Assembly: GCF_000161935.1 (NCBI RefSeq)
Contig: NZ_GG698806.1
Span: 29,523-81,178, forward strand
From: Limosilactobacillus coleohominis 101-4-CHN
GTDB taxonomy: Bacteria; Bacillota; Bacilli; Lactobacillales; Lactobacillaceae
Direction: 5' to 3'
Length of the DNA: 51,656 nucleotides
The notes below the pieces were generated by a model. That model was given only the letters and a program-made list of their open reading frames with translations. It was not told the DNA's origin and searched no databases. This document shows, one piece after another, positions 48,703-51,617 of the stretch; position 1 is the first letter of the stretch, and the number at the start of each line of letters is the position of its first letter. A program made the position numbers and the translations under genes.

Positions 48703-48813
48703 ATCATTTTATTAACAATCTGCTGGAGTTGGGTATCGTTACGCGGTTAATGGTATAATGTCAGAAAGAATCCTTGGTATCGGCATTTGCCGAACCAAAT
48801 TGAGGTGAGAGAA

Positions 48814-49485
48814 TTGGATAATAATAACAATCACGACCAAGAAAAACATTTAAGTCGCGTTGAATTATACGACACCCCGAAAAGTCGGAAAAAACCTAAA
48901 CGCAGTTTATTTAGCCGCAAAAGTAAGCAAGCTAACGCCACTGGTCCAATCAGTGATACCCAGGCTGAAAGCAATGTCAATCGCACTAGCCGAACTAACC
49001 TTAAAAAAGCTGGACAACCAAAGCGACCGAAAAAACCACGTGGTAAAAAGAACGGACGGATTTACAAGATTGTTCTTGGCATTCTATTAGGGATTTTGGC
49101 AATCATGATTATCATCTTTGCCATCCGGCAGCAAAATCCGGTAAACAACGACACCGATACCACGGTTTCATCATCAAGTTCTTCGAGTTCTTCTCATAAG
49201 CGTCACCACCGTCGTCATCGTTCTTCATCGATTGATGATGATGATAATCAAGCTACTTATGAGATCCAAACGCCACGATCAAATACCACCACGACAACCG
49301 GTGGCAATAATCAGACGAACCAAAATAGTGCTTCGCAGAACACGAATGACAACCAGCAATCAAACACGAATCAGCAACAAAATAGTCAGCAAAGCAATAA
49401 TGGCGCTAATACTAATAATGGTGGTTCTAATAATAACGGTGGTCAATCTAATACCAGTACTAACAATGGCACAACCAACCAATAA
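48814..49485 (+). CDS. Single-pass membrane protein with long disordered tail
   Basis: A 223-residue protein: a strongly basic cytoplasmic N terminus (about 1-80, Lys/Arg/Pro-rich), one membrane helix (IVLGILLGILAIMIIIFAI, ~85-105), then a Ser run, His/Arg patch, DDDD, and an extracytoplasmic Asn/Gln/Ser/Thr-rich tail with NNG repeats. The start is TTG after GAGGTGAG; no ATG fits. No catalytic domain or wall anchor is visible. It sits between ahpC and the thrS T-box leader and may be a surface or envelope-organising protein; function unknown. Confidence 0.78.
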   Translation: MDNNNNHDQEKHLSRVELYDTPKSRKKPKRSLFSRKSKQANATGPISDTQAESNVNRTSRTNLKKAGQPKRPKKPRGKKNGRIYKIVLGILLGILAIMIIIFAIRQQNPVNNDTDTTVSSSSSSSSSHKRHHRRHRSSSIDDDDNQATYEIQTPRSNTTTTTGGNNQTNQNSASQNTNDNQQSNTNQQQNSQQSNNGANTNNGGSNNNGGQSNTSTNNGTTNQ

Positions 49486-49510: not shown

Positions 49511-49539
49511 TTGACACTAAAATTTGACTCGCATATAAT
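49511..49539 (+). promoter_or_regulatory. Consensus promoter of the thrS leader
   Basis: TTGACA (49511-49516), 17 bp and TATAAT (49534-49539): a perfect sigma-A promoter. Transcription should begin near 49546. Confidence 0.85.
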
Positions 49540-49545
49540 CAGCAG

Positions 49546-49790
49546 TAATTAAAGGACAAGCCCTATTACCTCCCTATCCAGAGAGTGATTCATTAGTGGA
49601 AGAATCATTAGTGATGGTAATGGCGGTACCACCTTTATAACTACCCTCCGAAATAAGGAGGAGCGGGTCGTGTCCGTTACCACACCTTTGAGAGAATATT
49701 ATTAGATATTCTGAAGATGGGTGGAACCACGCTGATTATGTTAACCAACGTCCCTAGGATCGTTAATTCGGTCCTGGGGACGTTTTTTAT
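49546..49790 (+). ncRNA. T-box riboswitch upstream of thrS
   Basis: A tRNA-sensing leader. The T-box sequence TGGAACCACG (49722-49731, inside GGGTGGAACCACG) would pair with the acceptor end of uncharged tRNA. The terminator is AACGTCCC/GGGACGTT (49747-49754, 49777-49784) plus an inner AGGA/TCCT, ending in T6. The specifier is probably the Thr codon ACC at 49679-49681 (before ACACCTTTGAGAG); another ACC occurs in GGTACCACC near 49626. Uncharged tRNA-Thr would favour antitermination and thrS expression. Confidence 0.92.
49747..49788 (+). terminator. T-box-controlled intrinsic terminator
   Basis: AACGTCCC pairs with GGGACGTT, with an interior AGGA/TCCT pairing and a T-run (49783-49788). It is conditional on the T-box. 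Confidence 0.9.
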
Positions 49791-49811: not shown

Positions 49812-51617
49812 ATGGCACAAGTTGCAGTAATGTCACCAAACGGTGAAGTTAATAAAATCGATAAGGACTCAGCAGAAAGTGCTGCAGCCCTTCGTCAAAT
49901 GGCTGCTTTGATGTTAAAGGCAGTATTGGCGGACAAGTATGATGGTATTCGTTTAGGCGATGCCGTTGCCGAAGATGACCAATTCTGGGTTGATTCTGAC
50001 AAGGATGACCAACAAGTTTCCGCAGACGAACTGGAAGGCTTAGAAGCTGATATTAAGAAGCTGGCTAAGAACGACGCTAAGGTTGAATTCGTTGAACGTG
50101 ACGTCAACGACGCCCTCGCTGACGTTAAGAATGACAAGTTCTCAACCGAACTCATCAACGACCATGCTAAAAATGGTAAGGTCGCAATGTACAATCTTGG
50201 CAACGCCTATGCTGTTGCTGAAGCACCAATTCTGGTTTATGGTGACGTGGTTAAAAACTTCAAGTTGCTTTCCGTTGCTGGTGCATACTGGAAGGGCATG
50301 TCATCCAACCCAATGCTTCAACGGATTTACGGGACTGCTTTCTATAAGAAGGATGACCTGGCAGAAGATCTTAAGAAGCGTCAAGAAGCTAAGGAACGTG
50401 ACCACCGGGTAATTGGTAATCAATTGGATCTCTTCTTCGTTGATCCAAAAGTTGGTGCTGGTTTGCCATACTGGCTGCCAAAGGGTGCTGCAATTCGGCG
50501 GACAATCGAACGTTACATCATTGATCGTGAAGTTGCAGACGGTTACGAACATGTTTACACTCCAGTATTAATGAACCTGGATGCCTACAAGACTTCTGGT
50601 CACTGGGAACACTACCGTGACGACATGTTCCCACCAATGGACATGGGTGACGGTGAAATGCTTGAATTACGGCCAATGAACTGTCCAAGCCATATTCAGG
50701 TTTACAAGCACCACCTTCGTTCATACCGTGACCTGCCATTACGGATTGCCGAATTAGGGATGATGCACCGTTACGAAAAGTCTGGTGCCCTTTCCGGGTT
50801 ACAACGAGTGCGTGAAATGACGTTGAATGACGGTCACACTTTCGTCGCTCTTGATCAAATTCGTTCAGAATTCGCCAAGATTTTGAAGTTAATCATGAGT
50901 GTCTACAAAGACTTTGACATTACTGATTACAGCTTCCGACTTTCATTACGTGATCCAAAGAACGTCAAGAAGTATTATGCTAACGATGAGATGTGGGAAA
51001 AGTCCCAATCCATGTTGAAGCAAGCCATGGATGACTTAAGCCTCGACTACTACGAAGCCGAAGGTGAAGCTGCATTCTACGGTCCAAAGCTGGATATTCA
51101 AACTAAGACGGCCCTTGGCAACGACGAAACGATGTCCACAATCCAACTGGACTTCATGCTCCCAGAACGGTTTGGCCTGACTTATGTTGGTAAAGATGGT
51201 CAAGAACACATGCCAGTTATGATTCACCGTGGGGTAGTTGGAACTATGGAACGGTTCGTTGCCTACCTGACCGAAATTTACAAGGGTGCCTTCCCTACTT
51301 GGTTAGCTCCTGAACAAGTCCACATTATCCCAGTTTCAGACGACAAGCATGGTGATTACGCTGACCAACTTGGTGCCGAATTACGTGCCGCTAAGATTCG
51401 GGTTAACGTCGACCACCGGAACGAAAAGATGGGTTACAAGATTCGGGAAGCCCAAACGCAAAAGGTTCCGTACACGCTGGTTGTTGGGGACGATGAAATG
51501 GCTAACGGTTCCGTTTCTGTTCGAAAATACGGTGAAAAGGAACAAAATAGCATGAGCAAGCAAGACTTTATGGATGAATTACTTGCTGACATCGCTTCTT
51601 ACTCCCGCGCTAAATAA
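49812..51617 (+). CDS. thrS: Threonyl-tRNA synthetase lacking TGS domain and editing residues
   Basis: A class II synthetase that charges tRNA-Thr. The catalytic core is complete: motif 2 region [20 protein letters not shown], zinc ligands Cys291 (NCPSH), His342 (DGHTF) and His472 (MIHRG), and the C-terminal anticodon-binding domain from about residue 500. It is 601 residues, roughly 40 shorter than usual, and begins directly in the N2 region: no TGS domain is visible. The N2 editing domain is recognisable by the flanking [20 protein letters not shown], but its active-site residues appear lost: HxxxH corresponds to Q29-M-A-A-L33, and CxxxH to A136-E-A-P-I140. A T-box leader controls it. GGAGAG precedes the ATG. 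Confidence 0.93.

Follow-up and report, generated by a model that had tools for sequence, protein, structure and literature searches.

Canonical bacterial threonyl-tRNA synthetases (ThrRS), such as those of E. coli (1qf6/1tje) and S. aureus (1nyq), carry an N-terminal TGS domain and an N2 domain whose four editing residues hydrolyse Ser-tRNA-Thr. In E. coli, the kcat of editing is 7000-fold lower in the H73A mutant, 70-fold lower in H186A and more than 500-fold lower in C182A/S (PMC4041444). Synthetases that have lost editing are reported from the reduced genomes of host-restricted bacteria, and robust editing is held to be the rule in free-living ones (PMC10057733). Judging by titles and the first lines of abstracts, none of the literature matches listed deals with ThrRS editing in lactobacilli; Melnikov 2018 and Li 2011 may mention these bacteria. 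The ThrRS described here is encoded in a 51,656-nucleotide stretch of the Limosilactobacillus coleohominis 101-4-CHN genome (hereafter, the window). It differs from the canonical enzymes in having no TGS domain and in the replacement of all four editing residues.

The features of the locus are listed in Table 1. The product is assigned to the NCBIfam family thrS (TIGR00418) with 642.8 bits against a cut-off of 383.65, and both the class II core (PF00587) and the anticodon-binding domain (PF03129) are recognised by Pfam. An in-frame TAG stands directly 5' of the ATG, and the frame measures 601 codons from stop to stop. This confirms the length given in an earlier note on this DNA and rules out a mis-called start hiding a TGS domain. 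The T-box control proposed in the same note is supported by the match to RF00230, although its score of 66.4 bits lies under the Rfam gathering score of 93, so that a default Rfam search reports no T-box. The specifier, as read from the RF00230 alignment, appears to be ACC, and the T-box motif GGGTGGAACCACG was seen. A T-box precedes thrS in seven of the eight relatives' loci tested, with none in L016, and the hairpin layout 5' of the gene is similar in the relatives inspected.

Table 1. Features of the thrS locus (positions in the window; residue numbers are those of the 601-residue protein).
Feature	Position	Strand	Basis
T-box leader (RF00230) upstream of thrS, putative specifier ACC (Thr)	49539..49758	+	66.4 bits, E 1.9e-14
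Terminator-like hairpin ACGTCCC...GGGGACGT, then T run	49748..49789	+	read by eye
thrS, threonyl-tRNA synthetase, 601 aa	49812..51617	+	ORF list, NCBIfam, sole copy in genome
N-terminal residues 1-11, possible leftover of the first TGS strand joined to the N2 linker	49812..49844	+	likeness to MADISIKFPDG; 4.5-bit profile match
N2 domain (residues 10-185) with the editing-domain fold but without its catalytic residues	49839..50366	+	alignments, structural alignment
Q29, at E. coli H73 position	49896..49898	+	MAFFT alignment
L33, at E. coli H77 position	49908..49910	+	MAFFT alignment
A136, at E. coli C182 position	50217..50219	+	MAFFT alignment
I140, at E. coli H186 position	50229..50231	+	MAFFT alignment
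Conserved zinc ligand C291 (C334 in E. coli)	50682..50684	+	family alignment
Conserved zinc ligand H342 (H385 in E. coli)	50835..50837	+	family alignment
Conserved zinc ligand H472 (H511 in E. coli)	51225..51227	+	family alignment

Just 5' of the T-box, positions 48787-49485 (+) encode a predicted membrane protein with a long Ser/Asn/Gln-rich tail. It was matched in 35 of 108 relatives' loci, a count that duplicates and low-complexity matches may inflate. A possible link of thrS to the peroxiredoxin gene upstream of it was dropped, as AhpC was found in 3/108 relatives' loci, and two of these (L009 and L187) seem to represent a single gene; the search covered 1500 bases of flank, and a slightly more distant gene would escape it.

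The HxxxH...CxxxH site is absent from the N2 domain of the window protein. The earlier note had assigned Q29, L33, A136 and I140 to the four editing positions, and the MAFFT alignment agrees, so that 4/4 editing residues are replaced. A search of N2 for displaced His or Cys residues found one His and no Cys, which upholds the description of the site as erased and rules out its having been rebuilt elsewhere in the domain. The Pfam tRNA_SAD editing domain reaches 15 bits on this protein, against a cut-off of 24. From these residues we infer that N2 cannot hydrolyse Ser-tRNA-Thr and is a fossil editing domain, which probably keeps a structural or tRNA-positioning role.

All three zinc ligands are kept, as had been claimed, and C291 is conserved in every one of the 169 aligned ThrRS rows (156 from the family and 13 from outside it). 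Among 24 selected positions in or near the synthetic pocket, 21 are identical in all 169 rows and only 293, 341 and 441 vary. The zinc Cys is flanked by E285, S293 and I295 (window 50664-50696) in all family rows and by V/H/M in all outside rows. These three residues probably predate the loss of editing, since the one family genus with an intact site (g36, see below) also has them, and they may have been a permissive step by which discrimination improved before editing disappeared. Judged by its conserved residues, the aminoacylation half of the window ThrRS is intact. A degenerate editing site, an intact synthetic site and a sole gene copy thus coincide in one enzyme.

Loss of the ThrRS editing site is the state of most of the family Lactobacillaceae, which is invisible from one window. 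The family alignment comprised 156 ThrRS from 155 genomes and 40 genera. It included 29 of the 33 genomes of the window's genus (in two others the gene is split, and two yielded no complete gene). Of the 150 family genomes with a match, 129 were used; six of them are from the window's genus, and three of these are in both sets. The labels Limosilactobacillus (g1) and Paucilactobacillus (g20) were inferred from the best named matches. Outside rows were 13 ThrRS from 23 Lactobacillales genomes of other families; they represent seven families, f4 not among them. With the four editing residues written in order, full HHCH was found in 5/156 family proteins, all from genus g36 (5/5; L058 and L095-L098), and HHDL in 21/156 from seven genera (e.g., L044 and L055). 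The remaining 130, from 32 genera, keep none or one of the four residues and are called eroded below. All 13 outside ThrRS have HHCH. As a guess, genus g36 may be Periweissella and the HHDL genera the Leuconostoc-Weissella-Oenococcus group.

The best 80 of 586 named matches, all from Lactobacillaceae, keep zero (75 proteins) or one (5 proteins) of the four editing residues. They include Levilactobacillus brevis, Lactobacillus delbrueckii, Lactiplantibacillus, Pediococcus, Companilactobacillus, Lacticaseibacillus and Secundilactobacillus; the nearest named relatives among them are Limosilactobacillus (80-87% identity) and Paucilactobacillus (73-74%). This set overlaps the 156 proteins, so the counts are not additive, and it is poor in HHCH and HHDL types because the ranking is by likeness to the window protein. 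As a control, the Cys...His half of the site was sought as a pattern, not tied to thrS singly, in 200 Bacilli genomes; it was present in 182, and the reversed pattern in 2. This sample holds one genome of the family (G000) and also f4 genomes that carry the motif. Of the 17 misses besides G000, 13 had a full ThrRS (E<=1e-60), all 13 with HHCH and with different neighbours of the Cys or His; in the other four (G344, G389, G397 and G398) no ThrRS was found at E<=1e-60. The Pfam SAD profile gives 58.5 bits for a protein of the HHCH genus, 57.9 outside the family, 35.6 for an HHDL protein and 31.1 for an eroded g32 protein (L053), which thus still passes the cut-off (24 bits). Three Limosilactobacillus and Paucilactobacillus proteins score 13-15 bits. 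In g36, the SAD match lies inside the ThrRS frame in 5/5 genomes.

The absence of the TGS domain, also claimed in the earlier note, has a narrower distribution. Pfam TGS (PF02824) was absent from the window protein, L099 and L036 (0/3 for Limosilactobacillus and Paucilactobacillus) and present in 4/4 other proteins tested (L053, L058, L044 and L083). Among the rows examined, the domain is missing only in these two genera. Our own TGS profile, built from the other 131 rows, which it recovers by construction, gave weak matches in 3/38 Limosilactobacillus and Paucilactobacillus frames (L017, L018 and L041; about 1e-4 to 7e-4) and a weak one of 4.5 bits at the start of the window protein. TGS-bearing relatives begin with MADISIKFPDG, followed by about 45 residues and then by DGSIEIVTKDS. 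The first eleven or so residues of the window protein may thus be the start and first strand of TGS joined to the N2 linker, which would mean an internal deletion and not a late start; the earlier note, in which the protein began inside N2, would need refining to this extent. The structural alignment begins at E. coli residue 32; this does not support a first-strand origin and would agree with a leftover from the opposite end of TGS; the sequence match to S. aureus ThrRS starts at residue 9, equal to chain residue 55. The domain was probably lost when the stretch separating two short DGS-type repeats was deleted in frame. One such deletion may suffice, since a clade of Limosilactobacillus and Paucilactobacillus is not rejected (p-AU 0.616).

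Phylogenies were built separately for the synthetic and editing parts. In the tree of the catalytic and anticodon domains (69 rows), the family forms one clade (100), split into g36 with the HHDL types (88) and all eroded proteins (95). In the tree of N2 only, without eroded rows, g36 (95/91) and the HHDL proteins, as one clade (97/86), stand together against the 13 outside rows (100/100). This placement does not support the gain of a foreign N2 by g36. An origin of HHDL in two events was suggested by a quick tree that nested g36 among the HHDL types and set genus g35 beside it; this origin was rejected, as constraining the HHDL proteins together gave a likelihood better by 27.88 (p-AU 0.848). 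Most simply, the ancestor of the family would have had the site intact, with a single change to HHDL and a single loss, the latter in the stem leading to the eroded proteins. In the case of the TGS-bearing genus g54 (L077), the quick tree places the catalytic part of ThrRS inside Limosilactobacillus; gene transfer is unproven here, because a tree with Limosilactobacillus constrained to one clade is not rejected (p-AU 0.78).

Measured against the catalytic core, N2 evolves at roughly double the pace where the editing site is gone. The median N2/catalytic distance ratio is 2.26 outside the family, 2.86 in g36 (7 pairs) and 1.82 in the HHDL group, against 4.15 in Limosilactobacillus, 5.44 in Paucilactobacillus (14 pairs) and 5.17 in other eroded genera. 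The dN/dS values for N2 are 0.043 in g36 (6 pairs), 0.099 in HHDL, 0.113 in both Limosilactobacillus and Paucilactobacillus and 0.301 in other eroded genera; those for the core are 0.026, 0.051, 0.040, 0.035 and 0.093, respectively. By dN/dS alone, the contrast between eroded and HHDL proteins is weaker (0.099 versus 0.113 for N2 of Limosilactobacillus), and the latter value means that the fold is still under constraint. Eroded N2 domains are therefore relaxed, yet not free of constraint. Judged by distance ratio, HHDL domains resemble functional ones in their pace of change. This is a hint that their site is altered yet still active, perhaps with Asp as the basis of the editing centre.

The reading that we consider probable is that the window encodes a sole housekeeping ThrRS without post-transfer proofreading, whose Ser-for-Thr errors are tolerated. 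Tolerance is favoured because no second ThrRS was found, no tested editor tracks the loss, and Thr-to-Ser errors are reported to be well tolerated in E. coli, with little growth defect in ThrRS C182A (PMC10057733). The earlier note had also considered a trans-editing factor, i.e., a deacylase that clears Ser-tRNA-Thr in place of N2. This explanation is unlikely, although the genome does contain two stand-alone editing-type proteins besides YbaK (L176). One is a divergent INS-family protein (L177:1312-1872, +), a putative candidate for the ProXp-ST type (subgroups ST1/ST2), directly between tuf and a trigger-factor-like gene; its best PDB match is the hypothetical protein Atu3699 (28.3 bits, with ProXp-ala at 18.5 bits), and within the order sample the remaining matches share 22-36% identity. 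The other is a B3/4 protein of 234 aa (L271:1435-2139, -), and one stand-alone protein of this type deacylates canavanyl-tRNA-Arg (PMC10018355). Either could clear Ser-tRNA-Thr in this genome. As lineage-wide compensators, both were rejected: among 158 genomes of the order, relatives of the INS-type protein occur in 6/21 from the family versus 36/137 others, and a second B3/4 match, counted by hand and not necessarily stand-alone, in 6/21 versus 41/137. The only SAD protein (PF07973) in the window's genome is AlaRS, in a 921 aa frame, with no AlaX-type protein, and AlaRS is the sole SAD match in 5/6 Limosilactobacillus and 5/5 Paucilactobacillus genomes. Many other eroded genomes have two SAD matches, and the second may stem from what is left of N2 in ThrRS or from a different protein. 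A second match was counted in one Limosilactobacillus genome (G131, ThrRS at L099); it may be another, perhaps AlaX-type, protein, since the ThrRS there scores 13 bits only. None of the three editor families tested (SAD/AlaX, INS/ProXp and stand-alone B3/4) tracks the loss of ThrRS editing. A general loss of synthetase editing was not seen among LeuRS, PheRS, AlaRS and ProRS: the window's genome has LeuRS and PheRS editing domains of 233.5 and 233.6 bits and a ProRS INS domain of 93.7 bits, and its AlaRS, read by eye, keeps HTATH and CGGDH. With these editing parts present, the loss looks specific to ThrRS among these five synthetases.

A catalytic site that rejects Ser, through better discrimination or through pre-transfer editing of the kind used by the yeast mitochondrial ThrRS, would make post-transfer editing dispensable. 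The E285/S293/I295 replacement beside the zinc Cys speaks for such a site, as does the fact that the yeast enzyme functions without any editing domain (PMC4267643), but the near-identity of the pocket across all rows weighs against it, and we regard this explanation as improbable. Still less credit is given to a new active site or function of the eroded N2. L33 and A136 are invariant in 32/32 Limosilactobacillus-type proteins, and the dN/dS of N2 in this genus is low enough to be consistent with such a role; against it, the median ratio shows N2 changing faster with respect to the core than it does in the HHCH and HHDL groups, and in other eroded genera variability at the four editing positions is average for N2 (ranks 90-148 of 176). 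Least credible is an extra enzyme, either stress-type, as the earlier note had offered, or duplicated, that accompanies a normal ThrRS. Duplicated synthetases are frequent in nature (PMC4787780), and one Paucilactobacillus genome (G096) has two ThrRS genes, far apart on the same contig and both without TGS and the editing site (L037 and L038). The window's genome (1.73 Mb, 99.97% complete) contains one ThrRS, and 149 of the 150 family genomes having a match show a single one (E<=1e-100), so that this proposal is already refuted for the window's genome unless a thrS copy sits in an assembly gap.

The favoured reading of a tolerant, non-proofreading housekeeping enzyme would imply the following course. 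Post-transfer editing would have been lost once, in the stem of a large lactobacillus clade and not in the window's species, leaving a single T-box-regulated ThrRS with an intact aminoacylation half and N2 as a fossil. From then on, proteins would contain some Ser at Thr codons, and the cells would tolerate it. At a later stage, the common ancestor of Limosilactobacillus and Paucilactobacillus would have lost TGS, probably by the deletion described above.

Lactobacilli produce hydrogen peroxide. H2O2 oxidises the editing Cys of E. coli ThrRS (PMC4041444), and it is a speculation that self-made peroxide drove the loss of the Cys-containing site. A wider proposal, which we put forward tentatively and with some doubt, is that most Lactobacillaceae have lived without ThrRS proofreading since their deep radiation, with Thr codons partly read as Ser (a statistical proteome), and that a side branch rebuilt an Asp-based HHDL centre, avoiding the peroxide-sensitive Cys.

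Levilactobacillus, Secundilactobacillus and Furfurilactobacillus are food- and plant-associated. A food and gut family mostly without ThrRS editing would contradict the rule of robust editing in free-living bacteria, and many ordinary food and gut bacteria may sometimes carry Ser at Thr sites. Such Ser at Thr codons is a prediction that can be searched for in existing lactobacillus proteomics data. The natural series of intact, HHDL, eroded and eroded TGS-less enzymes would serve to probe the cost of proofreading and when it is dispensable.

Several known systems resemble the ThrRS described here. Archaeal ThrRS is likewise a synthetase without editing, but archaea have a separate Ser-tRNA-Thr hydrolase, ThrRS-ed, with a DTD-like fold (PMC7373986). 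Yeast mitochondrial MST1 is also a ThrRS without editing; it is without the whole domain (PMC4267643), whereas the lactobacilli keep the fold. Another parallel is offered by the editing-degenerate synthetases of Mycoplasma and host-restricted bacteria (Li 2011 and Melnikov 2018, as cited in PMC7373986 and PMC10057733), which have a degenerate or inactive ThrRS editing site. In comparison with those cases, the lactobacilli represent most of a family, with genomes of 1.2-3.5 Mb and not only small host-restricted ones, and the window's genome has the editing parts of LeuRS, PheRS, AlaRS and ProRS.
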